From the IMG/VR virus record IMGVR_UViG_3300034418_004092, positions 1-21,362 of that record: a DNA stretch of 21,362 bases. One strand, given 5' to 3'. The position numbers and the translations under genes were made by a program. Of this stretch, positions 2 to 15,242 are shown in pieces; the stretch's first letter is position 1, and every line of letters begins with the position of its first letter. Source of the stretch: a virus. The notes beneath the pieces are model-generated. The model saw only the letters and a list, made by a program, of their open reading frames with translations, searched no databases and had not been told where the DNA came from.

Positions 2-3000
2 CTCTCGGCAAACGGATTGACAGTCCCTGAGAAGACGCTGCTAGAGAAGTACGGAAGTGAAGCAGCTGCCTTTTCTTTGAGATGTGTAAATAGGTCATAC
101 GTGGGTCCTATCATAAACCTAGACGCAGCTACTCTTACTCCGAGCAATAATGATATATACCTAAACTCTAGCGGTGAGATAAACACGGACAGGATAGAGG
201 CCCTCTGCACAAACCCAGATACCACAACGTCGTACGGGTATTGCAAAAAATGGTATGATCAAAGCGGTCAAGGACTCGACGCTACAGCTTCAACTAGCAA
301 CAACGCAGAAAAGCCACTCATCTTTGATAAAAATTCTGGTTCAGTATATCTATCTAACGGAAAGCCAGCACTGTTCTTTAACGACAACAATGTGGATATG
401 ACAACTGGCTCGATACCGTCGAATAAGGGGACCTCTTATGTTGTCTTCGAGCCAGAGATCGCCTCTCCTCAGAGTCAAGGTTATATGTTTGCTAAGGGTG
501 GGGGTGGGGGTTCTTGGTACCTAACAGCATTTAATGGCCCAAGCAATGCTGCAATGTTGCCAGCTGAGGGAACTGTATCTGTAAACTCTGCAACAGACAT
601 AGACCCTGCCACAGGAAGAGTGGATCTTTATTCTGCTACAGCAGCAAAGGTATCGCTCGTTGTTGTCGACGAGTATCTTCAAACTAGCGGAGAGCCCTGG
701 ATAATAAGCGGATATTCAGACTATAGCTTTGATATAGAAGGTTATGTCCAAGAGTGGGTATGGTGGAAAGACAGCTTGACGAGTAGTATACCGAGTATAG
801 AGGAGAGCGTTAATGCTCACTACCTCATCTACCAAGAGGCTACGGCATCCCCAGCTTCTGGGTTCTTGGCTGATTACAGCGGAGCTGCTGCAGCTTACTC
901 TGTAAGACAGCTAGGTGATGCCAACCTCTGCATGAAGGTGAGACGGTCTGGTGATAGCGCTACAAAGAACATAGGGTTTGGATCTGACGGGTTTGTAGAT
1001 ACGACTGCTATCTCAGACTTCTGCGGTACTGACGACGGGTTTGTCGTCACTTGGTACGACCAAAGCGGTAACGCTGTAGATGCAACTCAGGCGACTGCAG
1101 GAAGTCAGCCTAAGATATACGACGGGACAGATGGTATTGTTTTTCTTAATGGATTCCCAGCTGTAGAGTTTGATGGATCTAACGATATTCTTCAGTCATC
1201 AACTCAGGATATCAACGCTCAAGCTATAATTGCTGTGGCTTCTACAAGTAGCGAATTAACATCAGCTCAGCACATCATTCGCTTTTCCGCCTCTTACATA
1301 AGGTTCGATGGTACCAATAAGATTGAGTATAGAAACAATGTAAACCTTAGGGATGCAGGTTTTACCGACTATGCTGAATTGACTGAAGATGCAGCTACCC
1401 TAGTGTCTTGGTATACTAAAGGAACTTCTGAAAATGATGGTAGTGCTTCTTGGAGGAGATATGCTAATGGAGAACTTCTTGCGACTATTACTGGAGATAA
1501 CTTGTCTTCTGAAAGCGCTACCGTTAAAATCGGAGCTCAAGGTTCTTCTCAAGAGCCTCTCAACGGTAAGGTGTGTGAGGCTATCATCATCGACAAGCTA
1601 GACGCTCACTACGACGAAGCTGATGTCATACACGAGGAGATTAACGACGCTTTCAATATATACCCAGACGCAGACACCACTCCAGAGTCAGGATTCCTGA
1701 GCGAGTTCTCTGGGGCTGCAGCTGCATACTCAGTACGTAAGCTTGGGGACTCCCCAGTATGTATGAGAGTCAGGAAGACTGTCAGTGCTGTCGACTACTA
1801 CCAAGTCATCGGCTTCGACTCTAACGGTGATCTCGATACAGCAGCTATCGAAGAGTTCGGTGGTACCGCTGACGTATTCGTGCAGACGTGGTACGATCAG
1901 AGTGGGAACGGAAAGCACGCTACTCAAGATACTAATGCAGCGCAACCAAAGATTTATGACGGAACGAACGGTGTAGAAAAAGAGAACGGTTACCCGACTA
2001 TTAACTTCGACGGGACAGACGACTACCTTGAAGTAGATGGGTACATAGTTGAGCTCAGTCAAAACTCTGCTTCTGTTTTTGCTTTGTCAAACGTAGGCAC
2101 ATCAGATGCCAGTGATTACTTATTGTCTGAAGGAGACGCAGAATCTCCATATAGTAGTAACTTTATTCTTGGCGGCGGTGGTGATGTCACTCCTCGACCT
2201 GTTGTCTGGGTAAATGGAACTGGCTTTGGGACACAAACAACTGGTCAAAACTTAATAGGATTTGACTACGACGGGACAAACTTTCAAGCCTATGTGGATG
2301 GAGCGGCATCAGGTTCTTCTGGATCAGCTACTGTAAATGCAGAGATATCTGGAGGCAATACTGTGATTGGATCAAGAGCGTCTGGAGACACTGACTTTTA
2401 CTCTGGGAACTTGCAAGAGCTAATCACTTACAAGTCAGATAAGTCCTCCAGTCGTTCTGATATAGAAGACAACATCAACAACTACTACCTGATTTACCAA
2501 AGCGCTTCTACCACCCCAGCTACTGGACTGCTCGCAGCCCACCCAGCAGAGGCTGCGTACTCAGTACGCCAGCTCGGTGATGCTTTGCTCTGTATGAAGG
2601 TGGCGAGCGGAGCTTCTGGCAACCCTACGAAGAACATCGGGTTTAAGAACGGGGTGCTGGATACAGCAGCCATCGAAGAGTTCTGCGGGAACAACGACGG
2701 GTTTGTGGCTACGTGGTACGACCAGAGTGGGAACGCTGTAGACGCTTCTCAAAGCACTCACTCTAGAAGACCCAAGATCTACGACAACGCCACTGGTATT
2801 CTAAAGGAAAACAACAAGCCATGCGTAAGACAAGTTGACGGAACTTCTCAGCTTCAGTTTGGTCTTGCTGGAAATGCAAACCAACACTACTTCGGTGTAG
2901 TCACTTCAGATGTAAACAATTTTCTCTTCACCAACGATCTAGCTTCAGACCAAAGGTTTTATTTGGCGGCTACCGACGCCAATAGCGCTTCGGCTTCCAA

Positions 3001-4846
3001 CAATGTAACGGCAGATGATTTTTATCTTAACGGAACGCTTTCTAATGGGGCCGACGATTCAAGAGATAGTGTGTACGATGCTTTCATAAATACGCAGCGT
3101 CTTTTCTCTCAGAAAATTGACAACAGCTCGTGGAGCTCAACCCAAGTATTTGGCTATCAGTTTAGCTCAACATACAGAATGATGGACATGCAGGAGGTTG
3201 TTATATACAACTCCGATCAATCTGCGAGCCGCTCATCCATAGAGACCAACATAAACAATCACTACAAGATCTACACTCCTTTCATTGCTGGACTTCTTGA
3301 CTCATACCCTGGGGCTGCTGCAGCTTACTCTCTGAGAAGACTTAGCTCTACTTACACAGGACCAGCTATTGAGATCACTAGCACCAGCGGTACGCAAGAC
3401 ATCGGCTTTGATTCAGAAGGCAATCTTAACACTTCAGATATTATAGCCTTCTGCGGCGCTAACGACGGGACGGTTTCTAAGTGGTACGATCAAAGCGGTA
3501 ATGGTAATGACGCAGTTCAAGCGACACTCGCTCAACAACCAAAGATCTACGATGCTACTACTGGGTTGGTGACAGAGAATGGGGAGCCTGCGGTGGAGTT
3601 TGATGGCAGTAATGATTGTTTCACAATGGATCTCATTTCGGATAGCACAGAAGTGAGTATTTGTGCAGTTCATAAAAACGCTCACAGAGCCGATTACGAT
3701 CCTATTATTGGGGTTGGCGATGGAGATGGTTATGCCCTGACCACACAAAACAACAAATACAATCTGTTCTATAGAACTGTTGCAGATCAAACAACAACAA
3801 GTGATGCACCAAATAATACTCAAGCCATTGTTTTTGCATATACTAAATCTGCCACTAGTCAGGTGTTGTACTCAAATGGTACTGAGATACAAAACATTAC
3901 TCCAGCAACCATGCTCACCCCAACGACTGGATCTAGCATTGGGGCTTATGATGTTGGAGATAGCGCGACTAAATACGACGGCTTCATTCAAGAGATTGTT
4001 CTGTACAACTCCGACCAATCCGACAACCGAAGCGGTATTGAGAAGAATATCAATAAGCACTACAGCATCTACAACCAACCGCTTCTCGATGTCGTCCCTG
4101 ACGCTGCAGCTGCGTACTCACTGCGTAAGTTGAGAGCGGGGTATACAGGCCCAGCGATCAACGTATTCAACGGTACGGACTACAAAGACATCTACTTCAA
4201 ATCTGACGGTACTCTTGATACAGGAGCTATCTCTAGGTTCTGCGGTAGCAATGACGGTACTGTGGCTATATGGTATGACCAGAGCGGTAATAACAATCAC
4301 GCAAATCAGACGACATCCGCAAACAGACCTAAGATCTACGACAGCGTTACTGGTATCCACACCGTTGAAACAGATCCAGCTATTGAATGGTTGACTTCTG
4401 ACAGCCTGTCGATAAGCCCAACTGGTTCTGTTACGACATTTGCAGTGGTTAAGGTCAACACCATAGATGTAATCAACTATTTGCTTTTCGAAGATCATGA
4501 GGTCGGCGGTCTGGTTTTGTCTGGAACATTCTCAGGAGTCGACGGTTTGGGGGTTGTGCAAATTAATCCGAGCCTTGTCGCTTCAACCATAACAGGAGAG
4601 GACACCTCAAGGCATCTTGGCGTATGGAATTATAGCGGTTCACAATATCAGGTAGCAAAAGATGGTGGCAGTTTCACTGATTTGTCAAATACAAATAAAT
4701 TTAGCTTCACATCTATTGGCCGTCAAATCGAGGTAAGCGCCCGACTCTTGGGGAGCGTTCAAGAGATCGTTCTGTACAACTCCGATCAATCTAGCAACCG
4801 CAATGTAGTCGAGACCAACATCAACCACTACTACTCGATCTACTAA
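2..4846 (+). CDS. Six-module concanavalin-like adhesin or receptor-binding protein (5' partial)
   Basis: Probable virion adhesin or tail-associated receptor-binding protein. The frame is open from base 2; the first start-like codon (TTG at 17) has no start context, so the gene very likely begins before the window. Numbering from that TTG, six modules begin near residues 12, 286, 563, 841, 1096 and 1359. Each opens with an A-A-Y-S-x-R-x-L segment, has a W-Y-D-Q-S-G-N/Q motif (W at 79, 346, 625, 900, 1156, 1419) and a P-K-I-Y-D segment, then about 100 variable residues, and mostly closes with E-x-x-x-Y-x-S-D-Q-S and N-I-N-x-x-Y-x-I-Y. The YDQSG signature and size recall the LamG/arabinofuranosidase-B-type concanavalin fold found in phage fibres. 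No catalytic function can be claimed. It ends with TAA overlapping the stop of the convergent minus-strand gene. Confidence 0.85.
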   Translation, partial: LSANGLTVPEKTLLEKYGSEAAAFSLRCVNRSYVGPIINLDAATLTPSNNDIYLNSSGEINTDRIEALCTNPDTTTSYGYCKKWYDQSGQGLDATASTSNNAEKPLIFDKNSGSVYLSNGKPALFFNDNNVDMTTGSIPSNKGTSYVVFEPEIASPQSQGYMFAKGGGGGSWYLTAFNGPSNAAMLPAEGTVSVNSATDIDPATGRVDLYSATAAKVSLVVVDEYLQTSGEPWIISGYSDYSFDIEGYVQEWVWWKDSLTSSIPSIEESVNAHYLIYQEATASPASGFLADYSGAAAAYSVRQLGDANLCMKVRRSGDSATKNIGFGSDGFVDTTAISDFCGTDDGFVVTWYDQSGNAVDATQATAGSQPKIYDGTDGIVFLNGFPAVEFDGSNDILQSSTQDINAQAIIAVASTSSELTSAQHIIRFSASYIRFDGTNKIEYRNNVNLRDAGFTDYAELTEDAATLVSWYTKGTSENDGSASWRRYANGELLATITGDNLSSESATVKIGAQGSSQEPLNGKVCEAIIIDKLDAHYDEADVIHEEINDAFNIYPDADTTPESGFLSEFSGAAAAYSVRKLGDSPVCMRVRKTVSAVDYYQVIGFDSNGDLDTAAIEEFGGTADVFVQTWYDQSGNGKHATQDTNAAQPKIYDGTNGVEKENGYPTINFDGTDDYLEVDGYIVELSQNSASVFALSNVGTSDASDYLLSEGDAESPYSSNFILGGGGDVTPRPVVWVNGTGFGTQTTGQNLIGFDYDGTNFQAYVDGAASGSSGSATVNAEISGGNTVIGSRASGDTDFYSGNLQELITYKSDKSSSRSDIEDNINNYYLIYQSASTTPATGLLAAHPAEAAYSVRQLGDALLCMKVASGASGNPTKNIGFKNGVLDTAAIEEFCGNNDGFVATWYDQSGNAVDASQSTHSRRPKIYDNATGILKENNKPCVRQVDGTSQLQFGLAGNANQHYFGVVTSDVNNFLFTNDLASDQRFYLAATDANSASASNNVTADDFYLNGTLSNGADDSRDSVYDAFINTQRLFSQKIDNSSWSSTQVFGYQFSSTYRMMDMQEVVIYNSDQSASRSSIETNINNHYKIYTPFIAGLLDSYPGAAAAYSLRRLSSTYTGPAIEITSTSGTQDIGFDSEGNLNTSDIIAFCGANDGTVSKWYDQSGNGNDAVQATLAQQPKIYDATTGLVTENGEPAVEFDGSNDCFTMDLISDSTEVSICAVHKNAHRADYDPIIGVGDGDGYALTTQNNKYNLFYRTVADQTTTSDAPNNTQAIVFAYTKSATSQVLYSNGTEIQNITPATMLTPTTGSSIGAYDVGDSATKYDGFIQEIVLYNSDQSDNRSGIEKNINKHYSIYNQPLLDVVPDAAAAYSLRKLRAGYTGPAINVFNGTDYKDIYFKSDGTLDTGAISRFCGSNDGTVAIWYDQSGNNNHANQTTSANRPKIYDSVTGIHTVETDPAIEWLTSDSLSISPTGSVTTFAVVKVNTIDVINYLLFEDHEVGGLVLSGTFSGVDGLGVVQINPSLVASTITGEDTSRHLGVWNYSGSQYQVAKDGGSFTDLSNTNKFSFTSIGRQIEVSARLLGSVQEIVLYNSDQSSNRNVVETNINHYYSIY
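50..4846 (+). repeat. Six tandem coding repeats of about 0.75-0.83 kb
   Basis: Module starts at about 50, 872, 1703, 2537, 3302 and 4091 share DNA-level similarity around the W-Y-D-Q-S-G codons (251, 1052, 1889, 2714, 3482, 4271) and in the closing segments near 3209, 4003 and 4771. The middles of the modules are dissimilar. Modules 2-4 share an L-G-D-x-x-x-C-M-K/R-V segment; modules 1, 5 and 6 carry Y-T/V-G-P-A/I-I at the same place. Confidence 0.85.
496..510 (+). repeat. G-rich tract G3-T-G5-T-G5 inside module 1
   Basis: A run of three, five and five G residues separated by single T residues, encoding a short glycine stretch in the variable centre of module 1. Such runs are prone to polymerase slippage. 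No function beyond a flexible glycine loop is shown. Confidence 0.8.
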
Positions 4847-5268
4847 TACTCTTCTACATGCCTGTAAAAAGCCTGCACCAACATGCGGGCTTTTTGCGTT
4901 ATAGCATACCGCACTCGGTAGTTCATCTTGGTCTCGTCACGGAACAGATGATCTTCTGCAGTCTGACTGGGGGTCAGCCTGTCGAAGTGCTTGTAGATAT
5001 ACCCCATGTTCATGAGCGGGTAGAGGACTCTCTCCCCTAGCTTCTTCTTGGACATCTCATAATCCTCAGAAGCAAAGTCCTTGGTAAAGAACTCTAGGTC
5101 GTACCCCCACACCAAGAAGTCTAAGTGGCTACCAGCAATACCTTTCTGTTCGCAGAAATCTATCTTGGCTGTCCTGTAATACTTGAGGTAGTTTCTATTC
5201 AGGTACCTGTCCTGCATTACGGAGAACTCTCTAAAGAGTCTTGTCTTTCTAACCTTTGACTTGGGCAT
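4843..5268 (-). CDS. Putative winged-helix (MarR-like) regulator
   Basis: A 141-residue basic protein, the only convincing minus-strand gene here. The C-terminal half (about residues 85-140) resembles a winged-helix ending: a helix with L-Y-P-L-M-N-M-G-Y-I, a charged wing, then Y-A-I-T-Q-K-A-R-M-L-V-Q-A-F-Y, which matches the y-x-L-T-x-x-G-x-x-L pattern that ends MarR-type DNA-binding domains. That match is by eye only. It starts at ATG 5268, about 23 bases beyond a TATCTTTG element on its own strand, and diverges from the operon starting at 5304; a 7-bp inverted repeat in the gap could be its operator. Its stop overlaps the stop of the adhesin gene. A terminator hairpin lies within its last codons. 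It could instead be a small virion or packaging protein. Confidence 0.75.
   Translation of the reverse strand: MPKSKVRKTRLFREFSVMQDRYLNRNYLKYYRTAKIDFCEQKGIAGSHLDFLVWGYDLEFFTKDFASEDYEMSKKKLGERVLYPLMNMGYIYKHFDRLTPSQTAEDHLFRDETKMNYRVRYAITQKARMLVQAFYRHVEEY
4866..4895. terminator. Bidirectional hairpin terminator, 12-bp stem
   Basis: Stem AAAAAGCCTGCA (4866-4877) pairs with TGCGGGCTTTTT (4884-4895) with one T-G wobble and a 6-base loop. It has T5 at the 3' end on either strand, so it could stop transcription both ways. It lies 20 bases after the adhesin stop but inside the 3' coding part of the minus-strand gene. Confidence 0.85.
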
Positions 5269-6505: not shown

Positions 6506-7087
6506 ATGCGAAGCCTTAAGAAGTTTGTCGTAGAGCTCAAGAAGAGACTCAATGACACCATGAAGCTAGATAGCGGACTGGAGCTGTACGTCGATACGAA
6601 GTACAACGAGTTCCAGCACCGCGTCACAGAAGGACCAATCGTCTCAGTACCAGCCAAGTACGACACGGGGGCTAAGCCTGGAGACACGCTGTACTTCCAC
6701 CACCTTGTAGTTGTTAATGGAGGCCAGTCGCTCACGGGCGATGACGACCACTACCTCGTACACTACCACCCAGATATGGCGACCGAGTCACAAGCGATTG
6801 CCTACAAAGGTGAAGACGGTATTGGTTTGCTCGGTGGCTGGGGTCTTCTTGAGCCAGTAGAAGAAACTAAACAACCAGAGTCAGATGCAATCGAAATCGT
6901 CAAACTCAAGGAGGATAAGGTTACAAAGGGTCGTGTCGCTTTTACGGCTCCTTGGATTGAAGAACTTGGCGTCAAGGTTGGCGACGTGGTAGGGATTCCT
7001 AGGAACATGGACTACCGCATCAAGATCGACGGCAAGGAGTATTACCGAACCAGAGCTCAAGATTTTTTGTATGTCGAGGAAAGCTAA
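6506..7087 (+). CDS. GroES-like (chaperonin-10) co-chaperonin, tandem fold
   Basis: A 193-residue protein with two chaperonin-10-like parts. In the first (about residues 5-115), G-P-I-V-S-V-P (43-49) and G-A-K-P-G-D-T-L-Y-F-H-H (55-66) correspond to the GroES strand and K-V-G-D-x-V-x-F segment, followed by a longer insertion and L-L-E-P-V-E. The second (about 118-193) aligns well by eye with the GroES C terminus: L-G-V-K-V-G-D-V-V-G-I-P, then Y-R-I-K-I-D-G-K-E-Y-Y, then Q-D-F-L-Y-V-E-E. Bacterial GroES has about 97 residues. Residues 30-42 could form the mobile loop that touches GroEL. No GroEL is present, so it would act with the host's, as T4 gp31 does. Its end overlaps the next gene by 17 bases. 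Confidence 0.7.
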   Translation: MRSLKKFVVELKKRLNDTMKLDSGLELYVDTKYNEFQHRVTEGPIVSVPAKYDTGAKPGDTLYFHHLVVVNGGQSLTGDDDHYLVHYHPDMATESQAIAYKGEDGIGLLGGWGLLEPVEETKQPESDAIEIVKLKEDKVTKGRVAFTAPWIEELGVKVGDVVGIPRNMDYRIKIDGKEYYRTRAQDFLYVEES

Positions 7088-7485: not shown

Positions 7486-7559
7486 TGGGGCGTAGTTCAG
7501 TTGGTTAGAGCGTCTGTCTTATACACAGGAAGTCGCGGGTTCAAGTCCCGCCGCCCCAA
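7486..7559 (+). tRNA. tRNA-Ile (anticodon UAU)
   Basis: A 74-base cloverleaf: acceptor TGGGGCG/CGCCCCA, D arm GTTC/GAGC (one G-T pair), anticodon stem TCTGT/ACAGG (one T-G pair) with loop CTTATAC, variable loop AAGTC, and T arm GCGGG/CCCGC with loop TTCAAGT. Positions 34-36 are TAT, reading AUA. The 3' CCA is not encoded. Isoleucine identity rests on the anticodon. Most bacteria read AUA with a lysidine-modified CAU tRNA instead, so a UAU tRNA is unusual. Confidence 0.9.
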
Positions 7560-7563
7560 CTAT

Positions 7564-7637
7564 GCCCTCGTAGCTCAACAGGATAGAGCATTTCACTTCT
7601 AATGAAACGGTTACAGGTTCGAGTCCTGTCGGGGGTA
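7564..7637 (+). tRNA. tRNA-Arg (anticodon UCU)
   Basis: A 74-base cloverleaf four bases after the first tRNA: acceptor GCCCTCG/CGGGGGT (G-T pairs at 1-72 and 5-68), D arm GCTC/GAGC, anticodon stem TTTCA/TGAAA with loop CTTCTAA, variable loop CGGTT, and T arm ACAGG/CCTGT with loop TTCGAGT. The anticodon TCT reads AGA and AGG, codons common in this phage's genes. The CCA end is not encoded. It is probably transcribed with the upstream operon. Confidence 0.92.
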
Positions 7638-7651
7638 CAAATTAAATAGAC

Positions 7652-12821: not shown

Positions 12822-15242
12822 ATGAGTGACTTTACGCTGACATTTGGTGATCCGCTAAGGGTTAGCGTCACCGTTCCAGAGGGGGCCACTCAGGTTGCGT
12901 TGTCTACGTCGGACAGCAATGTCGTCGTAGTGCAGAACGCTCTAGCTGTCACTGGTGGTACTGGTGCTGCTGGGGCTGGGGTACCTGTTGGTGGCACCAC
13001 AGGACAAAGCCTTGTCAAGCTTACGGATGCTGACTACTCTACTCAGTGGGCCGACAGGCTTGCTTCTGTTGTGGAGGATACATCTCCTGAGCTAGGCGGT
13101 AATTTGAATACCGCTGGTAACGCTATCACATTTGAAGACGAAGGCGGAGTTGCGGCTGGAAGTTTGGCTTATGACGTCGACGAAGAGACCGTGGCATACA
13201 CCAATGCCGACGGAGTTTCTATAGAGCTTGGTGAGAAGAACGTGTTTTACGGCAGAGCTGATGAGGCTATCTCTAAGGGTGACGTTGTTATGTTTGGGGG
13301 CTCCACGGGTAGCAAATTGCTTTTTAAGAAGGCCGATCAATCATATCCTGGATTTATTCCAGAATGGGTTGTTGGGTTTGCAGCCCAGGACATGGCTCTC
13401 AATGATTGGGGCTACGTAGTATGGTTCGGAAAACTTGACGGGTTGTCTGGGTATGATCCTTCTGAGTACGACCAAGGCGATCTCCTGTACCTCGATCCAG
13501 ATAACGCTGGCGGAGTAACTACGACAGAGCCTGCTCCTGCAGACGGTCACAGCATACTTCTTGCAGCTGTCTTGACCACAAGCCCTGGAAGCTCTGGCAG
13601 AATCATCATCAGGCCAACGCACAAGCAAGACACGGACGAAGTACCTGAAGGCAGCACTAACCTGTACTACACGGCAGCTAGGGCTCAATCAGACGTACCT
13701 ACACTGAAGACTTCCGATCTTACTTTAGATGACACTACTAGGGTAGTAAACTTGCTAGCAGGCGGTAGGATCACGTTCAGAGACAGTGCAGCTAACCCAC
13801 TGCTTTATATCGACGAGAACAATGCTTACGTCGGGGTAGGTAACGTAACCCCGACAGCTGGACTTCACGTAGCTACTAATGCCCTTATCGGAAACAACCT
13901 TGAGGTAGACGGCTCTGAGGTCAGACTAGCTGACTCAGCGACAATAGGTGTTGACGGGGGCGAGAGGTTTACAATAGGCAAGATTACTGGAGCAGGATCA
14001 GCTTACATTACTATCAATGGAGCCGTCGATGTAGGTAACACGTTCCAGATTTCAAACACCACTGGTATTCAATTCAGTGGTGCTGCTGGCAATTCCCTTG
14101 GTGCATCCACCCTTGGGGACTTCTCGTTTACGAAGAATGGAAGCGGGTCCGCAAACTACAAGTTTGACAATCAAGTCAGTGAAGTGTCCTTTGAGAACAC
14201 CACATCAGTAAGCCTCAAGGACCAACTTCCTCTTAGGCTCTACGACTCTGACTCCAGCAACTATGTAGGTATACAGCCACCAGCTACGGTAGCTGCCGAC
14301 TACACACTCACCCTCCCATCCGATGATGGTGATGCAGACCAAGTCCTCACTACGGATGGTAGCGGAACTCTTAGCTGGACAACGCCAGTAAGTGACAGCA
14401 TCTATACGGCTAACGGTACGCTGTCTGGAAACAGGGCCATTGAGCTTAATGGCAATTCGCTCGAACTTACTCAAGGCGGTACGAGTCAGGTAAAGTTCTT
14501 TAACGCTGGTACTGCTCAGATAAACAACAGGCTTACGATAGATGGAGACACCGCGAACTCGTCTATTCGTATGTATGACAACGGCAACTCAAATGCCGTC
14601 ACGATAAACGCCCCAAGCTCTATGAGCGGGAACGTGACTGTTACACTTCCGACAGTAAACCTTACTTTCCCAACGAGCGCTGGAAGCGATGGAGATTTCA
14701 TAAAGACTGATGGTAGCGGAAACCTGTCCTTTGCAAATCCCATTGCAACATACGGAGGAGGCACTTTTTCTTGGTCTGATTTTGATGCAGCATTTAAGAG
14801 TGTAACAAGCTCTACAACGTATGCCACTCTTTTTACATACGCAGAGATAGACGCCGATGCAGATGTCACTATATCTGACACAATGGTGGGCCCGTGCGTC
14901 TCTCTTGGAGACAATCAGGACGGGACAAGGGGTACGCAGAATACTCTTGATATCAGAAACATTCCTTCAGGAAGAACTGTGGAGATTTCTACGGTGATTT
15001 CTTTTTATACAAACGGTAGTTGGCTCGCATCATGGGGAACTCCTGGGGCCCCCTATGCTGGAGGAACAGCGTCGTACTACGGCTCAGCAGCTACTGGTGG
15101 TGTGTACCAGGACGTAACGTTTGATCTTACAGACGCTACGATAAGTAACGGGCATATGGTTAAACAGTACCTCACACTAAGCCCCGTTACTGCCACGCAA
15201 ATTCGGTGGAGATGGAAGTCTCTTACAATAACGATTTCATGA
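12822..15242 (+). CDS. Tail fibre protein
   Basis: An 806-residue modular fibre, probably a trimer that contacts the host. In order: a beta-rich N terminus, a short collagen-like G-x-G-A-A-G-A-G segment (about 45-55), G-T-T-G-Q-S-L-V-K and L-G-G-N-L-N-T-A-G-N-A-I (about 90-105), a globular domain (about 130-265), V-P-E-G-S-T-N-L-Y-Y-T (about 274-284), a G-V-G-N-V-T-P-T-A-G-L-H-V segment, then two copies of a Y-D-x-x-x-S-N / T-L-P / T-D-G-S-G-x-L-S motif (about 470-520 and 580-635), and a beta-rich C-terminal tip (about 640-806). These are hallmarks of phage fibres, especially marine ones. It ends in an ATGA overlap with a small partner gene. Its place between portal and scaffold genes is unusual. 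Confidence 0.85.
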   Translation: MSDFTLTFGDPLRVSVTVPEGATQVALSTSDSNVVVVQNALAVTGGTGAAGAGVPVGGTTGQSLVKLTDADYSTQWADRLASVVEDTSPELGGNLNTAGNAITFEDEGGVAAGSLAYDVDEETVAYTNADGVSIELGEKNVFYGRADEAISKGDVVMFGGSTGSKLLFKKADQSYPGFIPEWVVGFAAQDMALNDWGYVVWFGKLDGLSGYDPSEYDQGDLLYLDPDNAGGVTTTEPAPADGHSILLAAVLTTSPGSSGRIIIRPTHKQDTDEVPEGSTNLYYTAARAQSDVPTLKTSDLTLDDTTRVVNLLAGGRITFRDSAANPLLYIDENNAYVGVGNVTPTAGLHVATNALIGNNLEVDGSEVRLADSATIGVDGGERFTIGKITGAGSAYITINGAVDVGNTFQISNTTGIQFSGAAGNSLGASTLGDFSFTKNGSGSANYKFDNQVSEVSFENTTSVSLKDQLPLRLYDSDSSNYVGIQPPATVAADYTLTLPSDDGDADQVLTTDGSGTLSWTTPVSDSIYTANGTLSGNRAIELNGNSLELTQGGTSQVKFFNAGTAQINNRLTIDGDTANSSIRMYDNGNSNAVTINAPSSMSGNVTVTLPTVNLTFPTSAGSDGDFIKTDGSGNLSFANPIATYGGGTFSWSDFDAAFKSVTSSTTYATLFTYAEIDADADVTISDTMVGPCVSLGDNQDGTRGTQNTLDIRNIPSGRTVEISTVISFYTNGSWLASWGTPGAPYAGGTASYYGSAATGGVYQDVTFDLTDATISNGHMVKQYLTLSPVTATQIRWRWKSLTITIS

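Follow-up and report, generated by a model that had tools for sequence, protein, structure and literature searches.

The T-even phages carry one adhesin, at the tip of the fibre. In this distal tail-fibre adhesin, recombination between conserved motifs has been described (Tetart et al. 1998, as cited in PMC7468147). Excerpts on marine phages describe metaviromic islands, in which host-recognition genes vary while the core is nearly identical (PMC3909814), and excerpts on near-identical cryoconite phages describe variable or flexible tail genes (PMC7468147). For the phage gene analysed here we consider one overall reading probable, namely that it encodes a surface adhesin of at least seven tandem concanavalin-like, GH54-related domains, whose frames are conserved and whose centres are swapped by homologous recombination.

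The gene opens the viral record IMGVR_UViG_3300034418_004092, whose 21,362 bases were analysed as one stretch (the window) that also contains genes for terminase, portal, capsid-like and GroES-like proteins. Because the terminase and capsid proteins have their nearest relatives in phages of Flavobacteriia (Flavobacterium elemo phages, Cellulophaga phi38:1 and Maribacter Panino), the host is likely to be a marine member of the Bacteroidota. Elsewhere in the window we observed a phage GroES-like co-chaperonin at 6506-7084 (PHROG 13932, E = 7e-59), adjoining genes for tRNA-Ile(tat) (7486-7560) and tRNA-Arg(tct) (7564-7638) just upstream of the terminase, and a fibre-like protein of 806 aa without a PHROG family at 12822-15242. 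A conserved neighbour gene on the minus strand (4846-5268; 141 aa, no family) served as synteny anchor for a comparison with 51 relatives, of which only 7 have array-type modules beside it, the other 44 having no such module at the locus. In several relatives (L014, L024 and L076), one array-type module closes a gene downstream of the terminase.

The array gene occupies positions 2-4846 of the plus strand, as an open reading frame whose 5' part lies beyond the window edge and whose last module is followed directly by the stop codon; its complete orthologue lies at 1054-6706 of the relative L004. It is a tandem array of modules of 249-268 aa (n = 6) separated by short linkers. The first residues, LSANGLTVPEKTLLEKY (positions 2-37, plus strand), are the end of a preceding, cut-off module and its linker, and they correspond to the end of module 1 of L004 (R1) and the linker to R2 (LSANGLTVPDLTMLEKY; 86.8% nucleotide identity over 53 nt). 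On the same strand there follow M1 (38-832; opening 38-391, centre 392-700, closing 701-832), M2 (863-1663; opening 863-1177, centre 1178-1525, closing 1526-1663), which is a chimera, M3 (1694-2497), M4 (2528-3274), M5 (3293-4072) and M6 (4082-4843), which pair by their openings with positions 2 to 7 of L004. M1, M5 and M6 are of one subtype, B, and M2, M3 and M4 of another, A. The openings of M4, M5 and M6 match those of R5, R6 and R7 (86% nucleotide identity for R7), but the centres of M4 and M6 do not match; M3 has the same centre as R4 (77% nucleotide identity over the full length) and as module S3 of L242 (94%).

The initial annotation had placed six modules at 50-4846, in the order B-A-A-A-B-B, and all of its motifs were found as described: LGD...CM(K/R)V in modules 2, 3 and 4, and Y(V/T)GP(I/A)I, aligned there without gaps, in modules 1, 5 and 6. 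Its description of conserved opening and closing segments around a divergent middle agrees with the mean pairwise amino acid identities among the six modules, which are 49% for the opening, 15% for the centre and 43% for the closing. All 15 opening pairs are significant by blastp (median E = 3e-26), and no centre pair among the six modules is, except M3/M6 (E = 0.003). Two details need revision. The variable middle, put at a hundred residues, ranges from 76 to 142 aa in the wider family, with a median of 111, and the six modules, though complete in the window, are a lower bound, since the gene is cut.

The full extent of the array can be judged from L004 and L006, which were obtained by scanning IMG/VR with the terminase (94% terminase identity) and both have a complete array gene. 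The gene of L004 encodes 1884 aa, in which an N-terminus of 20 residues (MPELGIGLGIHKGGVPKKS) precedes the seven modules R1-R7; L006, from a different metagenome, has the identical seven-module order. Because the window starts in the tail of a first module and R1 carries YNGP, the full order is probably B-B-A-A-A-B-B. Relatives differ in how many modules they have, as had been anticipated: there are seven in L004 and L006, four in L162 and from one to seven over the whole family. A midpoint-rooted tree was built from 75 openings, and in it the openings cluster by position, together with their counterparts in other phages. The A-type openings lie in one supported set (19 rows, of which 16 are A and 3 are B), and the B-type openings form no common group, M1, M5 and M6 lying apart; the separate clustering predicted for the two subtypes thus holds for modules 2, 3 and 4 and fails for 1, 5 and 6. 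Subtype A seems to be derived and B to represent the general form, the direction being deduced from the midpoint root.

For each of the two subtypes, a concanavalin-like two-sheet jelly-roll sandwich is predicted with high confidence. AF2 models of M5 (pLDDT 95.2) and M2 (pLDDT 90.8), one for each subtype, are mainly beta, and their best PDB matches in Foldseek are the GH54 structures 2d43 and 1wd3 (E = 7e-9 for M5 and 1e-10 for M2, over 310-317 columns), followed by concanavalin-like lectin domains and a cyanopodophage tailspike, with trans-sialidase and pentraxins also among the hits; the shared core expected by the initial annotation is present in both models. The Pfam family ArabFuran-catal (PF09206) matches with 75.9 bits against a cut-off of 25 (E = 3.8e-21), at profile positions 11-88 of 315 only, and a profile search against 1wd3 gives E = 3.4e-7. 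GH54 was reached by profile search; phmmer with one module against the PDB returned only artefacts with repetitive proteins. The Pfam match to Laminin_G_3 is sub-threshold (E = 1.4e-4). A PHROG virion structural protein is matched with E = 4.7e-75, and the PHROG category of the array family is 'head and packaging', not tail.

With GH54 as the closest relative by sequence and by fold, the modules could be active GH54-like depolymerases that cut polysaccharides, rather than binding domains. We think this unlikely. In the mapping of catalytic residues the hhalign alignment ended after 98 columns, leaving a weaker, anchored count and a weak alignment of the centre; by that count, an Asp lies within two residues of the place expected for the GH54 acid/base, Asp297, in 55 of 237 modules (23%), a frequency estimated to be no higher than chance. 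No Glu is conserved among the 237 modules at the column of the nucleophile, Glu221, where the alignment is weak, and the centres, in which the active site would be expected, are not conserved. Because the GH54 acid/base is not conserved, it is more likely that the modules bind without cutting, and between them they may bind several ligands or glycans.

Openings and centres were compared separately between phages. The position-3 openings of four phages are 80-92% identical at the nucleotide level and carry four unrelated centres: L004 has its own, M2 of the window has that of R2 (65% amino acid identity), L162 has that of R4 (92.7% nucleotide identity) and L242 has another. In module 3 of L162 (Q3), informative sites favour R3 by 91:6 over nt 3-273, then R4 by 244:4 over nt 274-773, and are mixed at the end (12:6 for R3). 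In M2 the ratio of R3 to R2 sites is 110:15, then 59:170, then 21:2; its opening and last ~50 nt are R3-like and its centre R2-like. None of 2000 permutations scored as well as either chimera. Since the informative sites switch source and revert, the inside of both modules is replaced and both flanks are kept in place. Recombination at conserved DNA blocks with exchange of centres, as suggested initially, is thus seen directly in these chimeric modules. Over 12,092 nt the identity between L242 and the window is 98.65%, and even so modules 1 and 2 are different; the centre of M5 has 65-74% amino acid identity to centres in other phages (L082, L083 and L084).

Modules have also been lost among close relatives. 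From position 4753 of the window onwards, where homology restarts within the closing of M6, L162 shares 93% nucleotide identity with the window, but it has four modules instead of seven; the last combines a position-4 opening with the terminal closing and has a weakly M4-like centre (E = 2e-7), consistent with an unequal exchange that deleted modules. An insert of ~130 aa, without a Pfam family, lies in the opening of module 2 of L162 (L162:3757-4170), at the loop that separates the A and B subtypes, and modules of L037 and L081 are likewise interrupted by insertions in their openings near that loop. In 51 close pairs the breakpoints lie inside the conserved blocks, dispersed over consensus residues 75-107 and 216-234 (~32 codons in the left block, 18 in the right one), a pattern consistent with homologous recombination within these blocks and not with a fixed recombination site.

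For a family-wide comparison we collected 243 distinct modules. Column entropy is high in their centres (3.0-3.4 bits) and low in their openings (about 1.4-1.9 bits) and closings (1.7-2.4 bits), although the module scans relied partly on conserved opening motifs, so that set-wide opening conservation is partly selected; position-matched comparisons are unaffected. In 306 pairs from different loci, unrelated centres lie behind openings that are at least 85% identical; the reverse, centres at least 55% identical and openings below 65%, was seen in about 47 pairs (between module 1 of L103 and module 3 of L174, the centres are 90% identical and the openings 48%). The 243 centres fall into 122 clusters, 85 of them singletons. 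In a second array family, L103 and L104 are 98.0% identical to each other at the nucleotide level over 3.8 kb on one side of the array and 98.6% over 3.7 kb on the other, but at none of the six positions are their centres related, and centre lengths differ. When L110 is included, both flanks remain about 98% identical and the openings are 85-97% identical at nearly all six positions, with six non-homologous centres in each phage. For most differing position-matched centres no donor was identified, and their replacement is deduced from the near-identical flanks.

The relatives with arrays are all metagenome contigs. Phage isolates gave no match to the array at the DNA level and, at the protein level, only single-module proteins below 60% identity; among the single-module Gordonia phage isolates, which all come from one host strain, centre exchange is absent, and the case for exchange therefore rests on metagenome contigs. 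Module-like openings, up to six per locus, also occur in genomes of Bacteroidota, Planctomycetes and Vampirovibrio (L332-L407), and phage centres gave zero matches to bacterial loci with related openings. We suggest tentatively, as slightly less likely than not, that the phages of marine Bacteroidota draw on one pool of interchangeable lectin centres, which circulate between unrelated phages and array positions, and that by the time its genome has diverged by about 2% a lineage can have rewritten most or even all of its six or seven recognition centres, yielding a combinatorial receptor repertoire at the level of the population.

A turnover fast enough to change six of six centres between phages about 98% identical might instead come from a programmed switch in one genome, by shufflon-like inversion, an archive of silent cassettes or a diversity-generating retroelement, which we regard as very unlikely. 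Shufflon and silent-cassette systems hold unexpressed or inverted copies, whereas the loci, in contigs that are incomplete, contain 0 orphan or silent centres among 788, every centre match adjoining an opening; modules outside fibre genes were not found in contigs of 37-64 kb, and the breakpoints are dispersed and not at one site. A diversity-generating retroelement introduces substitutions at template adenines in a segment of fixed length, unlike the array centres, which are non-homologous and vary from 76 to 142 aa.

That every array relative is a metagenome contig raises the question of whether the mosaics are chimeric assemblies joined at repeats. We hold this to be highly improbable for the arrays of the window, L004, L162 and L242, because their longest exact inter-module repeats (18 nt in the window, 17-21 nt in the other three) are too short for ordinary mis-joins; more care is needed in the second family, where modules of an array share identical stretches of up to 71 nt. 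The chimeric segments have 65-93% identity to their sources, as expected from divergence between phages, where a mis-join would give ~100%, and the shared module order of L004 and L006 was assembled from separate metagenomes. Very fast point mutation under selection within conserved frames, to which the lack of detectable similarity among centres of one array and the position-matched centres without an identified donor might be ascribed, is hardly tenable in view of the R4 centre behind a position-3 opening in Q3, the 90% identical centres of the L103 and L174 modules with their dissimilar openings, and the unrelated centres of different length between 98% identical flanks; as the sole mechanism it is ruled out by the chimeric modules, and it may add divergence after an exchange.

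Under the reading that we prefer, exchange by recombination, each domain consists of a conserved frame, made up of an opening of ~107 aa and a closing of ~44 aa, and an exchangeable centre of ~111 aa. Homologous recombination at the conserved frame DNA, whether between co-infecting phages or within one array (as gene conversion or unequal exchange), would swap centres with fold and reading frame intact, and whole modules would be gained or lost. The domains would bind cell-surface glycans without cutting them, at a site presumably located in the centre, and a swap may alter which Bacteroidota strains are recognised.

The protein would be attached to the tail of the virion by a short N-terminal peptide. 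In Gordonia phage isolates, single-module relatives directly follow minor tail protein genes. The peptide MLGLG starts 37 distinct ORFs in these loci (L251, L272, L277, L289, L295, L296, L315, L318 and L319 among them), and five permuted motifs start 0 of 4107 ORFs. The ectodomains that it heads are unrelated, being array-type modules, Laminin_G_3, Ig-like domains and others of no assigned kind, and array genes begin with a similar peptide, MPxLGxGLG (L004:1054-1113). The simplest reading is that this start is likely a shared docking peptide for interchangeable adhesins.

Nearly identical phages probably recognise different bacterial surfaces through exchanged centres. This would explain, for one protein class, variability of the kind seen in metaviromic islands and flexible tail genes, and it offers a testable mechanism by which nearly identical sea phages could keep differing host ranges, in which the frame supplies recombination homology and the centre specificity. 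The 122 clusters from 243 modules would also form a naturally occurring catalogue, in which a single scaffold bears many putative sugar-binding centres, of use for receptor mapping and for studying the co-evolution of recombination and recognition.

Compared with known proteins, the array modules have in common with the catalytic domain of GH54 alpha-L-arabinofuranosidase B (PF09206; 1wd3, 2d43) a homologous opening and the fold of the whole domain, and they differ in that the catalytic residues are not conserved and the domains form a tandem array in a phage gene. With the Laminin_G_3 and concanavalin A-like lectin modules of phage fibres they share the fold class, but PF09206, and not Laminin_G_3, is the family that matches their GH54-type opening, YSLR...WYDQSGN...PKIYD. 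In the excerpts describing metaviromic islands and cryoconite phages, genes or domains vary, whereas here the exchanged unit is the centre of a repeated domain. In the literature available without subscription we found no description of centre exchange inside such modules or of a tandem array of this kind. The swapping of centres resembles, in a form that we did not find described, the swapping of segments in the T-even adhesin. As that system is described, conserved segments flank variable ones, and the recognition part is swapped when the conserved segments recombine; in the array, too, conserved segments surround hypervariable ones, with recombination inside them in Q3, M2 and the 51 pairs. 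The array differs from the T-even adhesin in consisting of tandem folded domains of ~260 aa, each with its own exchangeable centre, and in that their number also changes.
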